Origin: Actinomycetota bacterium
GTDB taxonomy: Bacteria; Actinomycetota; JAUVYG01
DNA: 40,808 bases
Assembly: GCA_030603185.1 (NCBI GenBank)
Contig: JAUVYG010000008.1
Location: 1-40,808 of the forward strand
Reading direction: 5' to 3'
The notes under the pieces were generated by a model, which saw only the letters and a program-made list of their open reading frames with translations, had not been told where the DNA came from and ran no database searches. The translations under genes were made by a program, and so were the position numbers. Below are positions 9,963 through 33,647 of the stretch, one piece after another (the first letter of the stretch is position 1; the number at the start of each line of letters is the position of its first letter).

Positions 9963-9997
9963 TCCGGAGAACATTTTCTTAGGATAGTAGTTATTAG

Positions 9998-10034
9998 GAA
10001 CCCCGGCGGATATTCCGCCGGGGTTCTTTGTTTT
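9998..10034 (+). terminator. Strong intrinsic terminator
   Basis: A perfect 13-bp stem (GAACCCCGGCGGA at 9998-10010 paired with 10014-10026), a TAT loop and a T-rich tail TTTGTTTTT follow the acidic lipoprotein gene by 35 bases. Confidence 0.9.
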
Positions 10035-18125: not shown

Positions 18126-18162
18126 TTGCCTGTTAAATAGCGGGACAGAAGGAGTGCGAGTA

Positions 18163-18954
18163 ATGCCACAGACGATCTGGAAGGGCGCCCTAGGGTTCGG
18201 ACTGGTGAATATTCCAGTCAGGGTGGTAGCCGCAACTCACTCAGAGGATGTTCATTTTCATTTTCTTCACGGTGAAGACAGTGGCCCGATCAAACAGCTT
18301 CGGCGATGTACCATCTGTGGCGAAGAGGTTCCCTACTCTGATCTGGTTAAGGGCTACGAGTACGAAAAGGGAAGTTATGTGGTGATCGGTGAGGAAGACC
18401 TCTCTGCAGTCCCTCTCAGCACGACTAAGGTTATCGAGATCGTCTCCTTCATCCCAGTCGGACAAGTGGACCCGATCTATTACGACAAGAGCTACTTTCT
18501 GGCCCCCGAAAAGAATGCCGTCAAACCGTACGCTCTTTTAGGACAGGCGATGGAGGCAACAGGGAAGGTGGCACTGGCTAAAGTCTCGCTTCGCCAGAAA
18601 GAGAGAATGGCGGTCGTCAGGCCATACATGGATGCGTTCATGATGGAGACCATGCATTATCCAGATGAGGTAAGGGAGCCTGCGTTCCCTGAGCTTGATG
18701 ACACTGCCGGAAGCGACGCTGTGCAAGCCGAGGTCGACATGGCCGTTCAGCTCATTGAAGGTCTTGCCGGAGACTTCTCGCCCGGGGAGCACCACGACAG
18801 ATACCGCGAGGCACTTCTAGGAGTAATTGATAAGAAGATCGCCGGCGAAGAGATAGTCGCGCCCCAGATAAAAGAGGAAGGCAAAGTAGTCGACCTTATG
18901 GCGGCACTCAAAGAGAGTGTTGCCCGTATCCGGGCCGACGAGAAGACCGGATAG
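18163..18954 (+). CDS. ku: Non-homologous end-joining protein Ku
   Basis: A 263-residue bacterial Ku, which homodimerises as a ring on broken DNA ends and recruits LigD. The opening TIWKGALGFGLVNIPVRV and the following HFHFLH are diagnostic, as are CTICGEEVPYSDLVKGYEY and FLAPEKNAVKPYALL. The C-terminal tail is short and lacks the Lys-rich extension seen in some mycobacterial and streptomycete Ku proteins. ATG at 18163 is chosen, with GAAGGAG eight bases upstream; an earlier in-frame GTG at 18154 lies inside that ribosome site. It heads a same-strand series with the LigD polymerase (18 bases downstream), the ligase and a GyrI-like gene. Confidence 0.95.
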   Translation: MPQTIWKGALGFGLVNIPVRVVAATHSEDVHFHFLHGEDSGPIKQLRRCTICGEEVPYSDLVKGYEYEKGSYVVIGEEDLSAVPLSTTKVIEIVSFIPVGQVDPIYYDKSYFLAPEKNAVKPYALLGQAMEATGKVALAKVSLRQKERMAVVRPYMDAFMMETMHYPDEVREPAFPELDDTAGSDAVQAEVDMAVQLIEGLAGDFSPGEHHDRYREALLGVIDKKIAGEEIVAPQIKEEGKVVDLMAALKESVARIRADEKTG

Positions 18955-18972
18955 CAGGAGAAAAGGCGCACC

Positions 18973-19893
18973 ATGGCTGAAGAGGGCGTAATCGTAGATG
19001 TTGAAGGCAGACGATTACGCCTGAAGAAGTTGGACAAGATCCTGTGGCCAGACGAGGGGTATACCAAGGCCGATCTATACGAGTACTACACGCTTGTCGG
19101 GCCGTACATGCTGCCACACCTCAAAGATCGGCCGGTCACTCTTCATCGGCACCCTCATGGTATTCATGGTGAGGAGTTCTATCAGAAGGACGCTCCCCCG
19201 GGGAAACCTGATTGGGTGGATACATGGCGACATCACTTCAAGGATGTCGACCGCGATGCGGATCTGATCTTGGTCAATGATCTAGCATCTCTAGTGTGGG
19301 TAGTGAGTCTAGCTAGTATTGAGATCCACACCTGGCTGTCGAGAGCCACTGCCATTAAATCTCCTGATTATGCAGTGTTCGACTTGGATCCGGCGCAGCC
19401 TGCCGGATTCAAAGAAGCTTTCGAAGTCGCTCAGGTCATTAGGGCCGCTATCGCGGAATTCGACCTGACAGCATTACCTAAGACCAGTGGAAGCAAAGGG
19501 CTACAGCTGTTCGTGCCGGTGGGGGAGGGTTACAGCTACAAGCAGATTCGTGACTTTGTGGAATTCATCGGGAGAGCGGTCGGGAAAGCGATGCCGGATC
19601 TGGTGACTTGGGAATGGGCGGTAGCCGCGAGGTCAGGGAAGGTGCGGATCGACTACACCCAGAACGTGTTCGGTAAGACCATGGTGGCCCCGTACAGCGC
19701 ACGCCCGGTACCGGGCGCAAAAGTGTCCACACCTGTCACCTGGGATGAGCTTGCGGCTGGAGTCACCAACCACGATTTTGATATCAAGAATGTGCCCCAG
19801 AGACTCAGAGAAGTCGGGGATCTATTCGCTCCGCTTCTTTTGGGTGGGCAGAGTCTGGCACAGGTTTTGGAGGTTATCGATGGGAACCCATGA
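18973..19893 (+). CDS. ligD: LigD-type DNA polymerase/primase domain protein
   Basis: A stand-alone 306-residue polymerase domain of the LigD family (archaeo-eukaryotic primase fold), used to fill gaps or add bases at broken ends. Visible motifs are LDKILWPDEGYTKADLYEYY at the start, the catalytic Asp pair in AVFDLDPA near residue 138, TSGSKGLQLFVP near 170 and the basic RKVRIDY-like stretch GKVRIDYTQN. Length equals the isolated Pol domain, so ligase and phosphoesterase parts are not fused. The ATG at 18973 has AGGAG upstream. It overlaps the ligase gene by 14 bases. The symbol is given in the sense of the domain family. Confidence 0.92.
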   Translation: MAEEGVIVDVEGRRLRLKKLDKILWPDEGYTKADLYEYYTLVGPYMLPHLKDRPVTLHRHPHGIHGEEFYQKDAPPGKPDWVDTWRHHFKDVDRDADLILVNDLASLVWVVSLASIEIHTWLSRATAIKSPDYAVFDLDPAQPAGFKEAFEVAQVIRAAIAEFDLTALPKTSGSKGLQLFVPVGEGYSYKQIRDFVEFIGRAVGKAMPDLVTWEWAVAARSGKVRIDYTQNVFGKTMVAPYSARPVPGAKVSTPVTWDELAAGVTNHDFDIKNVPQRLREVGDLFAPLLLGGQSLAQVLEVIDGNP

Positions 19894-20905
19894 GTTCTTA
19901 CCTCCCATGCTTGCCACGCTGGGGGCCGAAGCATTCGACTCAGAAGAGTTTTGGTTCGAACCAAAATGGGATGGAATGCGAGTGCTCCTGGTGCTCGCAG
20001 AAGGCGAAGTCAGACTTTACTCGCGCAACGGCAATGACGTCACGATCGGTTTTCCCGAGTTCAAAACCTCGGTCGAGTCCCATGGGACCGATTTTCAGGG
20101 TGTGACCATTTTAGATGGCGAGATTATTCTGATGGGCCCCGACGGGCTTCCAGACTTCGAGCTTCTTTCTAACCGATTCGGAGTTTCATCCGGCTCCGTC
20201 GCCCTACGACTTGCCGCTGACTCACCTTGCAACCTGGTTCTGTTCGACTGTCTCGTTTCGGGTGGTGCGGACATCACGACCCGACCTCTGACCGACAGAA
20301 GGGTCACTCTTGAGAATATTCATCGCACTCACTTCCGCGACGATCCCCGAGTAGTGCTTTCCGAGATCACCAGAGGTACGGGCAGGGCCCTGTTCGCCGC
20401 GGTAAGCCAGTTGGGGATGGAGGGGGTAGTAGCCAAGCGTACCGCCAGCAGATATCAGCCTGGGGTACGAAGTCAGGACTGGGTAAAGATCAAGGTGGTC
20501 CGTGAGGACGACTTTATTGTGATCGGGTGGACAGAAGGGAAGGGAGCGCGCTCAGGCGGGCTAGGCGCGCTGATCCTCGGTAGCTGGGATGACAACGACA
20601 TACGTTGCGTCGGATCAGTCGGCACCGGATTTGATCAAGTGAAGATGAGGTCGCTGCTGTCCACTCTGAGCGACATCGCGGTAGAAGAGCCTGACCAGGC
20701 GATCATTTGCGAGTCTATTGCGGAATACGACCCCGACCCGGTATCTCATTGGGTCGAACCGAAAATCGTCGTAACCGTTGCGTTCTCGCAATTCACTCGA
20801 GGTGCCAGGTTGCGACACCCTTCTTATAAGACTGTACGCATAGACAAGAATCCTCGCGACTGTCGGTTGGACCCAACCTTCATGGGGAAGAATCCGGACA
20901 AATAG
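19880..20905 (+). CDS. ligD: ATP-dependent DNA ligase (LigD ligase-domain type)
   Basis: A 341-residue ATP-dependent ligase. The adenylated lysine is Lys29 in FEPKWDGMRV. TILDGEIILM and GVVAKRTASRY form later nucleotidyltransferase motifs, and DWVKIKVVREDDFIVIGWTEG joins the catalytic core to the OB-fold (motif V Lys-x-Lys). It seals the ends handled by Ku and the polymerase protein. The frame is open upstream, but the ATG at 19880 has GGAGG seven bases before it and starts just inside the end of the polymerase gene. No 3'-phosphoesterase domain is fused here or found next to it. Confidence 0.92.
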   Translation: MGTHEFLPPMLATLGAEAFDSEEFWFEPKWDGMRVLLVLAEGEVRLYSRNGNDVTIGFPEFKTSVESHGTDFQGVTILDGEIILMGPDGLPDFELLSNRFGVSSGSVALRLAADSPCNLVLFDCLVSGGADITTRPLTDRRVTLENIHRTHFRDDPRVVLSEITRGTGRALFAAVSQLGMEGVVAKRTASRYQPGVRSQDWVKIKVVREDDFIVIGWTEGKGARSGGLGALILGSWDDNDIRCVGSVGTGFDQVKMRSLLSTLSDIAVEEPDQAIICESIAEYDPDPVSHWVEPKIVVTVAFSQFTRGARLRHPSYKTVRIDKNPRDCRLDPTFMGKNPDK

Positions 20906-25796: not shown

Positions 25797-26232
25797 GTTG
25801 GATAATCGGTATCTTCTGCTTGCGTTGAGAATAGTCATCGGCGGGTTTTTCGCTTTTGCCGGATTCATGAAGGTGATCAGGCCTTGGCAGGAGTTTGCCG
25901 CTCAGGTCAGAGGTTACGAGATCGTAGGCGGTGTCTACGCTGATCTCATCGCGCAGGTACTTCCTTGGTTTCAGCTGATCTTCGGCCTTTTTCTATTGGT
26001 CGGTTTTCTTCCTCGCATCTCTTTGGCTGTGGCAACAGGCCAGCTTCTATTCTTCATCCCAGTTGTTGCATCCGTGATCATCAGAGGGATCCCGCTGGAC
26101 GACTGTGGCTGTTTTGGTTCGATAGGGATTCAGGAGACTCCGCCTGTAGTCCTGGTCAGGGACACTGTTCTCTTGGTCCTGTCTATTCCGCTTTGGCTAC
26201 ACCACCTAAGAGACTCAAGGGCTACAGAGTAG
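25789..26232 (+). CDS. MauE/DoxX-family membrane redox protein
   Basis: A 147-residue protein with four membrane helices (about 8-28, 55-74, 76-98 and 119-139), the size of MauE and DoxX relatives. It has ALRIVIGGFFAFAGFMKVI at the start and a Cys-x-Cys pair, Cys106 and Cys108, in LDDCGCFGS just after the third helix, a typical MauE feature. MauE is needed for disulfide formation in methylamine dehydrogenase. The overlap with a DsbA-like gene suggests that this protein passes electrons to or from that thiol protein. The ATG at 25789 has AGGGA upstream; longer upstream reading would lie inside the DsbA gene. No methylamine dehydrogenase genes are present. Confidence 0.85.
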   Translation: MSRLDNRYLLLALRIVIGGFFAFAGFMKVIRPWQEFAAQVRGYEIVGGVYADLIAQVLPWFQLIFGLFLLVGFLPRISLAVATGQLLFFIPVVASVIIRGIPLDDCGCFGSIGIQETPPVVLVRDTVLLVLSIPLWLHHLRDSRATE

Positions 26233-26284
26233 AATCCTTATTTTTGGTTTACCGATGGAGTAGCGCGGGTACGTACAGTTTGTT

Positions 26285-26510
26285 GTAAGACCGAGATGAT
26301 TCTCGGTCAAATGTCCAGACAGGAGGCCTCTATGGATAGTCCGCCTGAGCAGACAGGCCGAATCTGAGTTAAGTGCGAAACCCTCAGATTGGGTCTAAGA
26401 CGGTCGGTAAGTAAGAATGTAGACCGTAATCTGGAGAGAGGTGGAAAGTGAGTCCACCAGACACATAAGGGCGCCGTTAGAGCGTTCGAATGAAATGAAA
26501 ATCAAAGATG
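26285..26510 (+). ncRNA. Unassigned structured RNA upstream of tadA
   Basis: The 341-base gap 26233-26573 has no reading frame of note but a chain of stable hairpins on the plus strand. Perfect 7-bp 26289-26295/26302-26308; 6 of 7 pairs 26320-26326/26341-26347 with one A-G mismatch; perfect 8-bp 26361-26368/26383-26390 with a 14-base loop including GTGCGAAAC; perfect 6-bp 26400-26405/26422-26427; perfect 6-bp 26440-26445/26453-26458. A strong terminator follows. Linkers are purine-rich. I cannot match it to RNase P, tmRNA, SRP RNA, 6S RNA, T-box, TPP, FMN, cobalamin or c-di-AMP classes by their conserved cores. It could be a free RNA or a terminator-controlled leader of tadA. The 5' end is a guess from the first hairpin; the strand is favoured by the T-rich tail. 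Confidence 0.55.
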
Positions 26511-26557
26511 CAGACCCCCCGGGAGCTGAGGCTCCCGGGGGGTCTGTTTAATTTATT
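26511..26557 (+). terminator. Very strong intrinsic terminator before tadA
   Basis: A perfect 16-bp stem (26511-26526 with 26531-26546) closes a TGAG tetraloop and is followed by TTTAATTTATT. It ends the structured RNA 17 bases before the tadA start. The opposite strand also has a T-rich flank, so it could work both ways. Confidence 0.9.
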
Positions 26558-26573: not shown

Positions 26574-27023
26574 ATGCCATACGAAACATTCATGAAAGAA
26601 GCACTCACAGAGGCAAATATAGCTTGGGACTCAGGTGAGGTACCGATTGGGGCAGTTGTCGTTGATGGTGAAGGCAACATCATCTCGAGAGCGCACAATC
26701 AGCGAGAGTCGCAGTCCGATCCTACCGCCCACGCCGAGATACAGGCACTTCGAACAGCGGGGAAGGCCAGAGGAAAATGGCGAATGGAGGGACTAACTCT
26801 ATTTGTTACCCTCGAGCCCTGTCCGATGTGTGCCGGAGCCATCGTTCAATCCCGCATTAAGAAGGTTGTGTATGGATGCGATGACCCAAAAGCTGGAGCA
26901 TGCGGTACTCTGATGAATATCACTGCTGATAGTAGACTGAATCACCAGGTAGAAACGGTGGGCGGGGTTCTTGAGGCGGAGTGCAAGCAATTAATGACAA
27001 TGTTCTTCAAAGAACGACGATAG
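26574..27023 (+). CDS. tadA: tRNA-specific adenosine deaminase TadA
   Basis: A 149-residue enzyme that converts A34 to inosine in tRNA-Arg(ACG). The zinc and catalytic sites are TAHAEIQAL (His53, Glu55) and EPCPMCAGAI (Cys83, Cys86). DDPKAGACGTLMN near the C-terminal half is also typical of TadA rather than other deaminases. Length is normal. The ATG at 26574 has only a weak AGG upstream. TAGGTT stands six bases before it, so the message could be leaderless with a start right at the ATG, downstream of the strong terminator. The gene may also be reached by read-through. thiM follows after 22 bases. Confidence 0.93.
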   Translation: MPYETFMKEALTEANIAWDSGEVPIGAVVVDGEGNIISRAHNQRESQSDPTAHAEIQALRTAGKARGKWRMEGLTLFVTLEPCPMCAGAIVQSRIKKVVYGCDDPKAGACGTLMNITADSRLNHQVETVGGVLEAECKQLMTMFFKERR

Positions 27024-27045: not shown

Positions 27046-27867
27046 ATGAGCCAGGAAAGTTTTCTTTCAGAAGTTGCCTCGAATCTTGAGACACTGCGAG
27101 AAAAGGGCCCACTGATCCACCAGATCACCAATTACGTGGTCATGAACGAAACGGCCAATATCACTCTTGCCATGGGAGGATCTCCGGTCATGGCGCACGC
27201 CCCCGAGGAGGTCGAAGAGATGGTCGGGTTTGCCGGAGCTTTGGTGCTCAACATCGGTACTCTCGAAAGCGCCTGGATAGATAGCATGGTTATCGCCGGC
27301 AAGGCAGCTAATGCAAAGGGTATTCCCGTGGTACTTGATCCAGTGGGTGTCGGCGCGACACGGCTTAGGACAGAGGCCGCCGGAAGAATCCTCGATGAGG
27401 TCGACGTGACAGTGCTCCGAGGGAACGCAGCCGAGGTGTCGGTGCTAGCGGGTGCCGAAGCTGAAATTAAGGGTGTTGACGCCGTGGGTGAATTTGCAGC
27501 TCTAGAGAAGGACGCCAAGAATATGTCCCGATCCCTGGGATGTGTTGTCGCGATCACCGGTGCGAATGATGTGATATCCGACACTGAACGCACGATAGTA
27601 GTCTCCAACGGAGATCCGATGATGGCCAAGATCACCGGTACAGGTTGTATGTCCAGTGCCCTTGTCGGTTGCTTCCTGGCTGTGAACAGCGACCCTGTCC
27701 TTGCGGCAGCAGGGGGATTGACCGCATTCGGTATTGCGGGGCAGAAAGCCGCCGCTATATCGGGGAATCGTCCCGGAACATTTCACGTGGCGCTATATGA
27801 CGAAGTCGCTGAATTGAACGCTGACGCGATCACCTCCCTTGGTAAGGCCACTTTTATTGGAACCTGA
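27046..27867 (+). CDS. thiM: Hydroxyethylthiazole kinase ThiM
   Basis: A 273-residue kinase that phosphorylates 4-methyl-5-hydroxyethylthiazole, salvaging the thiazole half of thiamine. Family features are PLIHQITNYVVMNETANITLA at the substrate site, GGSPVMAHAPEEVEEM, VLDPVGVGATRLRTE, LRGNAAEVSVLAG and the phosphate-binding KITGTGCMSSALVG, in which the Cys lies at the catalytic position. The ATG at 27046 has GGAGG upstream. It opens a run of five overlapping thiamine genes; the next gene, thiE, starts inside its last codons. Without ThiG in the window, thiazole is probably salvaged or made elsewhere. Confidence 0.94.
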   Translation: MSQESFLSEVASNLETLREKGPLIHQITNYVVMNETANITLAMGGSPVMAHAPEEVEEMVGFAGALVLNIGTLESAWIDSMVIAGKAANAKGIPVVLDPVGVGATRLRTEAAGRILDEVDVTVLRGNAAEVSVLAGAEAEIKGVDAVGEFAALEKDAKNMSRSLGCVVAITGANDVISDTERTIVVSNGDPMMAKITGTGCMSSALVGCFLAVNSDPVLAAAGGLTAFGIAGQKAAAISGNRPGTFHVALYDEVAELNADAITSLGKATFIGT

Positions 27868-28504
27868 TCGACTAGGCGTATATTTCGTTCTTCCTGACAT
27901 CGAGGTCTCTGAGCAGATCGCGCTTGCACTGAGCGCCCTTAAAGGAGGCGCTCGTACGATTCAGCTTAGGACGAAGGGCGCTTCCACCAGAACTACAGTA
28001 GAGACCGCCACGCGCCTGAAGACCCTTTGCGCCCAGCACGAAGCAGTACTGATCATCAACGATCGCTTGGACATTGCTCTTGCGAGTGGAGCAGACGGTG
28101 TACATCTCGGCCAGGACGATTTGCCCGTCGACATGGCCCGTAGGCTCGCAGGGGAAGACATCATCATCGGCGCGTCGGTCTCTTCACCAGCGCAAGCATC
28201 CGAGGCTGTACGACTCGGGTCAGACTATGTAGCTGTTAGCCCAGTTTTCGATACCCCCACAAAGAGCGATACCGGTCCTGCGCTTGGGCTCGACGGCACG
28301 CGCGCTATTTGCGAGTCTGTGAGCGTGCCCGTCGTCGGTATTGGGGGTATAAAGAATAAACATGTACGTTCGCTCGTTCAGGCGGGCATAACTAGCATTG
28401 CGGTCGTGTCCGAGATCGCCTCAGCCAATGACCCAGAGACGGCCACTGCCACTCTGGCGAAAGAGTTGCGGTTGTCACTTGTGCAGATTGGGTTGAGTAA
28501 TTGA
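27857..28504 (+). CDS. thiE: Thiamine-phosphate synthase ThiE
   Basis: A 215-residue TIM-barrel enzyme that joins HMP diphosphate and thiazole phosphate. Seen are the opening strand GVYFVLPD, IQLRTKGASTRTTVE, LIINDRLDIALASGADGVHLGQ, IIGASVSSPAQA, SDYVAVSPVFDTPTKSD and VVGIGGIKNKHVRSLVQAG for diphosphate binding. TTG at 27857 is chosen because it gives MEPDRLGVYF, near the usual start. A TTG six codons earlier is the alternative; neither has a perfect ribosome site, fitting translational coupling to thiM, which it overlaps by 11 bases. It overlaps thiC by four bases. Confidence 0.92.
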   Translation: MEPDRLGVYFVLPDIEVSEQIALALSALKGGARTIQLRTKGASTRTTVETATRLKTLCAQHEAVLIINDRLDIALASGADGVHLGQDDLPVDMARRLAGEDIIIGASVSSPAQASEAVRLGSDYVAVSPVFDTPTKSDTGPALGLDGTRAICESVSVPVVGIGGIKNKHVRSLVQAGITSIAVVSEIASANDPETATATLAKELRLSLVQIGLSN

Positions 28505-29802
28505 GTCTCATAGATGATCTAAAGTCCGGTATTGTCCCGGATTGGATCGAGTCGATAGTGCGTGATGAACCCATTACAAATCGCGAACTCATCGATGGAA
28601 TAGTATCTGGAAACATCGTTGCGCCCAGGAACATCCTGCGCCAGATGTCTTCCCCCCGAGCAGTTGGACGTGGTCTTAGAACCAAGGTCAACGCCAATAT
28701 TGGAACCTCAGAGGATATCTCCCTTGTGGAGGAAGAGATCGAGAAGCTCAGAGTGGCCTGCGCGTCTGGGGCGGATGCGATTATGGACCTGAGCACAGGA
28801 GGCGACATTCCTGCGATCAGAAAGCGCTTGATTGCCGAGTGCCCAGTTCCCTTCGGTACCGTTCCGATATACCAGGCTGCCGCCGAGGCGCATAAACGCG
28901 GAGCCGCCATCACAGAGCTTACGCCAGACGAGATCATAGGAGCCGTTGAGGCCCACGCCAAAGATGGCGTGGACTTCGTGACAGTGCACACTGGTATCAC
29001 ACGACGGTCCATTGACGCCTTGAAGCGCCAGCCGAGGGTGATGGATGTTGTTAGTCGAGGTGGTGCTTTGCTGGTCGGATGGATTATCGCAAACCAGCAA
29101 GAGAATCCACTCTTCGAGCGCTACGATGAACTTATCGAAATATGCAGAGAGTACGAAGTCACGCTCTCTCTCGGAGACGGAATGAGGCCTGGTTGCCTGA
29201 ATGACGCCGGTGATGCAGCTCAGATCGAGGAGCTCAAGATTTTGGGCGAACTACGAGAGCGAGCATTATCTGCTGGCGTTCAAGTGATGATCGAAGGTCC
29301 CGGACATGTACCGTTGAACGAGATCGAAGACCAGATCAGGATGGAAAAAGAGCTCTGCAATGGAGCACCCTTCTATGTCCTGGGGCCATTAGTGACTGAT
29401 ATTGGCGCAGGTAGAGACCACATAGTCGCAGCCATTGGCGGCGCAGTGGCTTCCATGGCCGGAGCTGACTTCCTCTGTTATGTGACCCCAAGAGAGCACC
29501 TGGGTCTTCCGACCGTCGAAGACGTGCGCGAGGGTGTTGAGACCCTAAAGATAGCGGCTCATGCCGGGGATATCGGCAAAGGGCTTCCTGGGGCAGCCGA
29601 TCGCGATCTCGAGATGTCTAAAGCCAGAAAATCTCTGGACTGGTCCAAGCAGATCAGCCTGGCCTTGGATCCAACCACCGCAAAAAGGATGCATGCTGAG
29701 AGAAGCGGCGATCGTGTGGATGCCTGCTCGATGTGCGGCGACTTATGCGCCATGAAGGTGGCCTCCGAGGCCCTGGGGATTGAGAATCCAGTCAGTTGCT
29801 AG
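28501..29802 (+). CDS. thiC: Phosphomethylpyrimidine synthase ThiC, short form
   Basis: A 433-residue radical SAM enzyme converting aminoimidazole ribotide to HMP phosphate. Features include NANIGTS near residue 65, the Asp-Leu-Ser-Thr-Gly-Gly site DLSTGGDIPAIR, VPFGTVPIYQA, FVTVHTGI, EGPGHVPLNEI, YVLGPLVTDIGAG and YVTPREHLGLP. The C-terminal Fe-S motif reads CSMCGDLC, i.e. Cys-x2-Cys-x3-Cys. The long Escherichia coli form has Cys-x2-Cys-x4-Cys; the shorter spacing and length resemble the archaeal and clostridial type. TTG at 28501 overlaps the thiE stop as TTGA. It ends seven bases into thiL. Confidence 0.95.
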   Translation: MSLIDDLKSGIVPDWIESIVRDEPITNRELIDGIVSGNIVAPRNILRQMSSPRAVGRGLRTKVNANIGTSEDISLVEEEIEKLRVACASGADAIMDLSTGGDIPAIRKRLIAECPVPFGTVPIYQAAAEAHKRGAAITELTPDEIIGAVEAHAKDGVDFVTVHTGITRRSIDALKRQPRVMDVVSRGGALLVGWIIANQQENPLFERYDELIEICREYEVTLSLGDGMRPGCLNDAGDAAQIEELKILGELRERALSAGVQVMIEGPGHVPLNEIEDQIRMEKELCNGAPFYVLGPLVTDIGAGRDHIVAAIGGAVASMAGADFLCYVTPREHLGLPTVEDVREGVETLKIAAHAGDIGKGLPGAADRDLEMSKARKSLDWSKQISLALDPTTAKRMHAERSGDRVDACSMCGDLCAMKVASEALGIENPVSC

Positions 29803-30823
29803 AGCGAATCAAGGGAACAGGGGAGTTCGCCTTCCTTGAGTCCTTGTTGGCCGAACAGGGGAGCGCGGTCGGGAATGACGTACTCATCGGTCCCGGCGAC
29901 GACTGTGCAGTCCTAGACTTTGGTGCTGATAGCTCCCTCAAAATGCTCATGGCAACAGATGCCATCATCGAGGATGTTCACTTCACACGCTCCGCCTACT
30001 CCTACTCAGAAATCGGCCGTAAGGCTTTGATCGTCAATCTAAGTGATATCGCCGCTATGGGTGGGACCCCACTTTTCGCCACGATCTCAGCTGCTGTACC
30101 TGCGGATATGGATCAGTCTGATCTATCCACGATGATGTCGGCTGTAGACAGTTGCGCCAGCGAGTATAGCGTGAAACTCGTAGGGGGGGACTTGACCAGG
30201 AGCGACAAGATATCCCTTTCCGTATCCATCGTAGGATCATGCTCAGAGGGCTCTGTACTCTCACGAGGTGGGGCTGCCGATACCGACATGATAATGGTGA
30301 CCGGTACGATGGGTGACTCCAAGGGTGGCCTTGACCTAATAGCTCAGGGGCACATGGATGGCCATCTTCAGAGCGTCCACCGGAACCCCATCCCGCGTAT
30401 AACCGAAGGGCGGGCTCTTGCCGCAATGGGAGCCACTTCCATGATAGATATCAGCGACGGTCTATTACAGGACGTGGGTCACCTATGCGAGGCAAGTGGG
30501 ACTAAGGCATTCATCAACGAGATGTCCGTTCCGGTGTCCGATGAACTACGCTCTGAATTTCCCGAGACCTATTCCACTCTTGCCGTATCAGGCGGCGAGG
30601 ATTATGAGCTCGCATTTACCGTACCCAAGGGATTTCCACGTGACCGGTTGGTCGAGTTCACGGAACTTACCGGAACTACGATTTCTGTGATCGGCAGAAT
30701 GTTTGACAGTGTGGCATCTCCGGCCCCCGGCGTGCCTCGACTTACCGGGGGAAGCGTCGAACTTCGTGGCCCCACGGTCGACGGCCCCCTTGGGTGGGAC
30801 TCCTTTACCTCGGGATCTGGCGA

Positions 30824-30827
<4 letters not shown>
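29796..30827 (+). CDS. thiL: Thiamine-monophosphate kinase ThiL
   Basis: A 343-residue kinase that converts thiamine phosphate to the active diphosphate. PurM-type features are visible: LIGPGDDCAVL with metal-binding Asp pair, ATDAIIEDVHFTRSAYSYSE, IGRKALIVNLSDIAAMGGTP and VGGDLTRSD for nucleotide and Mg. Then come TGTMGDSKGGLDLI, MIDISDGLLQDVGHLCEAS and VSGGEDYELAF near the C-terminus. TTG at 29796 overlaps the end of thiC by seven bases. The 3' end overlaps thiD by four bases as ATGA. Family length is normal, perhaps 20 residues longer than average. Confidence 0.94.

Positions 30828-33647
<2,820 letters not shown>

Follow-up and report, generated by a model that had tools for sequence, protein, structure and literature searches.

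A strongly folded, terminator-bearing element upstream of tadA and a run of thiamine genes: a possible attenuator leader with two mini-ORFs

The stretch of DNA analysed here (40,808 nt, hereafter the window) carries, at 26285-26557, a 273-base element between genes of the same strand. Upstream, genes for a DsbA-like thioredoxin and a MauE/DoxX protein end at 26232, and downstream tadA is the first gene of a tadA-thiM-thiE-thiC-thiL-thiD run, with ligA next. The main features at the downstream end are as follows.

26510 to 26557, plus strand: intrinsic terminator, 16 perfect pairs plus a G-U (17), loop TGAG, T-rich tail (z -7.8)
26574 to 27023, plus strand: tadA (tRNA adenosine deaminase), from matches to Pfam deaminase families, its best homologues in the phylum being 51-60% identical
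27046 to 31639, plus strand: thiM, thiE, thiC, thiL and thiD, on the same strand as tadA and tightly packed or overlapping

Elsewhere in the window, at 18154-20905, Ku-like and LigD-like (polymerase, ligase) frames adjoin one another as judged by eye, likely representing a bacterial end-joining locus.

The perfect 16-bp terminator that the earlier note had placed before tadA was confirmed, with 26511-26526 pairing with 26531-26546 (17 pairs when the G-U is counted) ahead of the tail TTTAATTTATT. It ends 26 nt before the tadA start, a spacing that makes a complete promoter between the two unlikely, so that transcription of tadA would depend either on read-through or on a promoter concealed in the tail of the terminator, where only weak candidates occur (such as the -10-like TAATTT). 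Intrinsic terminators of this strength number just two in the 40.8-kb window, the other lying near 9996; this second very strong hairpin (9996-10028, AGGAACCCCGGCGGAT...TTCTT) is located between two predicted genes and folds well on both strands.

The plus strand of the element has a minimum free energy (MFE) of -116.7 kcal/mol against a mean of -76.6 for its dinucleotide shuffles (z -8.64, with 0 of 200 shuffles equalling it), and the lowest-z tile of the whole window, tiled on both strands in 225-nt steps, falls on it. The terminator alone supplies much of this energy, but the body without it (26285-26509) is still far more folded than its shuffles (-75.8 versus a mean of -55.5, z -4.34), and the structured-RNA candidate proposed before tadA is thus borne out with and without its terminator. 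Folding is likewise strong on the minus strand (z -8.0), as expected from the inverted repeats, but the T tract there is poorer. Four helices (P1, P4, P5 and P6) are well supported, with pair probabilities of 0.95-1.0, while an alternative fold competes with P2 and P3; in the MFE fold, P2, P3, P4 and P5 form a possible four-way junction.

26289 to 26308, plus strand: P1, 8-bp hairpin GACCGAGA-TGAT-TCTCGGTC, pair probability 1.0
26314 to 26435, plus strand: P2 (26314-26319 with 26430-26435), closing the possible four-way junction around P3, P4 and P5 in the MFE folds of 26285-26509 and 26310-26465, probability about 0.4 in the full RNA
26320 to 26347, plus strand: P3, hairpin sequestering the AGGAGG Shine-Dalgarno of mini-ORF L1, probability about 0.4
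26355 to 26396, plus strand: P4, 13-bp hairpin with one mismatch, with its 5' arm containing the final codons and the stop codon of L1, pair probability 1.0
26400 to 26427, plus strand: P5, 6-bp stem ACGGTC/GACCGT with a 16-nt loop, pair probability 1.0
26440 to 26458, plus strand: P6, hairpin GGTGGA/TCCACC, pairing part of the L2 Shine-Dalgarno, pair probability 0.95

The element had been described as about 270 bases without a reading frame, and this holds for ORFs of conventional length; however, two mini-ORFs of 11 and 6 codons, both with a strong Shine-Dalgarno sequence, had been overlooked. The idea of a protein-coding remnant was rejected, the stop-to-stop frames inside the element being short. 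Read directly from the sequence, the mini-ORFs and their ribosome-binding sites are:

26321 to 26326, plus strand: Shine-Dalgarno AGGAGG of L1, 5 nt before the ATG
26332 to 26367, plus strand: mini-ORF L1, MDSPPEQTGRI*, 11 codons
26438 to 26443, plus strand: Shine-Dalgarno-like GAGGTG of L2, 4 nt before the GTG
26448 to 26468, plus strand: mini-ORF L2, VSPPDT*, GTG start, 6 codons

Both ribosome-binding sites are near-perfect relative to the consensus, and each mini-ORF starts inside a hairpin in which the Shine-Dalgarno sequence makes up the 5' arm and the Ser-Pro-Pro codons lie in the 3' arm. Both peptides also carry a Pro-Pro-acidic motif near their start. Motifs listed as EF-P-dependent pause sites include Pro-Pro-Asp and Pro-Pro-Glu (PMC4140641), and in E. 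coli polyproline stalls upstream of an intrinsic terminator alter its termination and read-through (PMC5021804). The two mini-ORFs fall within a single 343-nt gap, mini-ORFs of equal quality occurring about once per 2.5 kb on the same strand (16 in 40.8 kb), and both encode Pro-Pro-Asp/Glu compared with 11 of the 408 in a larger sample, although these statistics are post hoc, the pattern having been noticed after looking. In addition, the Ser-Pro-Pro stretches arise in part because the hairpin arms pair with Shine-Dalgarno sequences. An antiterminator was also sought and none was found: for the terminator arms, the best pairing with the body did not exceed what shuffling gives (274 and 168 of 300 shuffled bodies were as good), and when the fold was opened in silico at L1 or L2 the terminator stayed intact. 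Given the post hoc pattern, the pairing bias towards Ser-Pro-Pro and the lack of an antiterminator, the new observation of two mini-ORFs in Shine-Dalgarno-pairing hairpins before the tadA terminator is offered as a lead and not as a result.

Tentatively (probability about 0.38), we read 26285-26557 as a transcribed, folded leader, possibly intercistronic, that acts in cis as a transcription attenuator of the tadA-thiM-thiE-thiC-thiL-thiD run. The fold, terminator, 26-nt spacing and same-strand gene run are observed, as is the lack of an Rfam or TPP riboswitch match described below; transcription of the element, regulation of read-through at its terminator and a trigger in the translation state of the two mini-ORFs are inferred. 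The terminator directly before tadA would stop most transcripts, leaving the operon to be expressed through read-through, while ribosomes would disrupt P3 and P4 when on L1, and P6 when on L2. Translation of the mini-ORFs would be the likeliest input to the terminator, and the attenuator perhaps senses translation. The earlier note had left the choice between a free regulatory RNA and a ligand- or protein-controlled leader, but given the overlooked mini-ORFs with their good ribosome-binding sites, a leader that senses translation is no less likely than one that binds a ligand. A more specific version is a long shot: in a bacterial class with almost no sampled genomes, a new class of leader RNA would use two hairpins, which sequester Shine-Dalgarno sequences and encode Ser-Pro-Pro-acidic mini-peptides, to signal the state of the ribosome or of EF-P to the terminator that would govern tadA and thiamine synthesis jointly. 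Against the leader reading stand the missing antiterminator, the weak TAATTT, which could serve tadA alone, and the lack of any homologue and hence of covariation.

The source genome is the sole member of its class among the genomes examined, its next relatives sharing only the phylum. DNA searches of 60 phylum genomes, phages and plasmids, together with an exact-pattern scan of viral contigs, returned no credible homologue. A search upstream of tadA in relatives, which had been suggested as a check, was negative: the element was present in none of 89 same-phylum tadA upstream regions, only one of which (L176) had a terminator within about 60 nt. Similarly, no match was found at 80 thiM loci. 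A single-sequence covariance model (R1), which detects only fairly close homologues and may miss distant ones, gave no convincing match in 397 phylum genomes and none as a free gene. The best foreign match had an E-value of 0.009 per genome, of which a few are expected by chance, and fell on a rod-like RNA of another family, whose own covariance model matches only the terminator stem in the window. The element is thus probably a lineage-specific control element.

The rod-like RNA is a candidate new RNA family, unrelated to the RNA in the window. It is about 140 nt long, is conserved in family f21 of the same phylum (L219-L226 and L231-L237; for example G311:C37:17965-18099:-) and has 22 consensus pairs, six with compensatory changes; the loci scanned matched no Rfam family at E<=1. 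The G311 copy adjoins a gene for a 947-aa multipass membrane protein (UPF0182-like by eye).

Among the alternatives to the leader, the one that survives best, although less likely than the leader, is that the element belongs as a long 3' end to the pair of dsbA-like and mauE-like genes upstream, with a strong terminator after a spacer that folds without a regulatory role. The gene pair lies on the same strand, no recognisable promoter was found between its end at 26232 and 26285, and both the failure to find the leader in relatives and the lack of an antiterminator fit such a 3' end. However, the terminator lies 278 nt beyond the upstream stop, and the body without the terminator still folds far better than its shuffles (z -4.3).

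Somewhat less probable again is an independent small RNA acting in trans, about 270 nt long and transcribed from a promoter of its own near 26280 up to the terminator, in whose tail tadA would have a separate start. Its anatomy is discrete, the presumed 5' end being marked by a hairpin and the 3' end by the strong terminator, and TANNNT elements occur at 26274 and 26549. The first of these is the only promoter-like feature noted at the upstream edge:

26274 to 26279, plus strand: possible -10 hexamer TACAGT, weak and without a good -35, a pattern match only, which would set the RNA 5' end near 26285

In contrast, a sigma-70 promoter scan upstream of the element found no consensus promoter, with -35 matches of at most 3/6, the R1 search yielded no free-gene homologue in the 397 phylum genomes, and the four housekeeping RNAs tested are encoded elsewhere in the genome. 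A CsrA sponge of the CsrB type was also considered and, on a count by eye, set aside: the genome encodes a clear CsrA (G000:C101:1530-1682, 75 bits), and the element contains about five GGA motifs, roughly the chance number, with no enrichment seen.

The claim that the cores of known RNA classes are absent was supported by the covariance search, in which Rfam 15 gave no match at gathering cut-offs anywhere in the window and the best matches at E<=10 (His_leader, below its cut-off) rested on the terminator hairpin. The element has no Rfam match, and the claim of novelty survives this test. Several of the classes listed as absent (RNase P, tmRNA, 6S, SRP and TPP) were indeed found elsewhere in the genome, and a disguised RNase P, tmRNA, 6S or SRP RNA was rejected because the genome's copies lie elsewhere (RNase P on C31, tmRNA on C116, 6S RNA on C67 and the large SRP RNA on C62). 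The RNase P RNA itself (G000:C31, L031:1505-1808) is divergent, falling below the Rfam cut-off in both classes and scoring 81 bits for class B versus 65 for class A.

The suggested link to the thiamine genes could be sharpened. The TPP riboswitch model (RF00059) has no match in the window, and none in the leader even at E<=10, and a TPP riboswitch at the leader was rejected on this basis. The single TPP riboswitch above threshold in the genome (L153, G000:C14:1342-1464) precedes a gene for a Thi4-like FAD-dependent protein (named by eye), leaving the thiM-thiE-thiC-thiL-thiD cluster without one. This arrangement accords with the leader reading, and also with a metabolite riboswitch of an undescribed class, in which a four-way-junction aptamer and the terminator would control the thiamine genes, perhaps by reading a thiamine precursor. 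Precedent for a second thiamine riboswitch exists in HMP-PP/thiS (PMC6478431), and the MFE fold contains a four-way junction. However, P2, the helix closing the junction, forms in only about 40% of the ensemble, no other thiM locus gave a match, no alternative pairing to switch the terminator was seen and the first gene is tadA rather than a thi gene. Such a riboswitch is improbable, and less likely than a leader, a small RNA or a long 3' end. Autoregulation by TadA, in which a ribosome stalled at the L1 CGA codon (two codons before the stop, within the P4 5' arm) would turn tadA on because this codon is read by the TadA-made inosine tRNA-Arg, which decodes CGU, CGC and CGA (PMC3711424), is the most doubtful of all, as CGA is not a rare codon in the genome (8.8 per thousand among genes of the window, a 10-codon peptide containing one by chance with P ~0.08), no antiterminator was found and the literature search yielded no description of such control.

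As far as the literature searched shows, a true attenuator here would be the first regulatory element reported for the essential gene tadA, and it would link tRNA editing with the making of thiamine in a lineage of which very few genomes exist. A terminator that merely follows a folded spacer would be commonplace.

Compared with known systems, the element resembles raiA, Ms1, 6S, T-box and other Rfam RNAs in being a structured bacterial RNA of 150-300 nt, but it scores below their gathering thresholds and its better lax matches rest on the terminator hairpin. It shares with the HMP-PP (thiS motif) and TPP riboswitches the arrangement of a terminator-bearing RNA before thiamine genes, yet its leader has no TPP match at E<=10. 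The HMP-PP riboswitch has its aptamer embedded in the terminator, whose lower stem can pair alternatively. In the element, pairing of the terminator arms with the body, through which the two were compared, was no better than with shuffled bodies, and no pairing able to open the lower stem was found. From the ribosome-mediated attenuators (the his, pyrBI and mgt leaders) it differs in the genes concerned (tadA and thiamine synthesis), in having no run of one regulatory codon and in lacking a mutually exclusive antiterminator, as judged by pairing against shuffled bodies. It is like them in its short ORFs with ribosome-binding sites and in its folded leader with a terminator before an operon, and by its sequence a putatively translatable leader ORF lies upstream of the intrinsic terminator.
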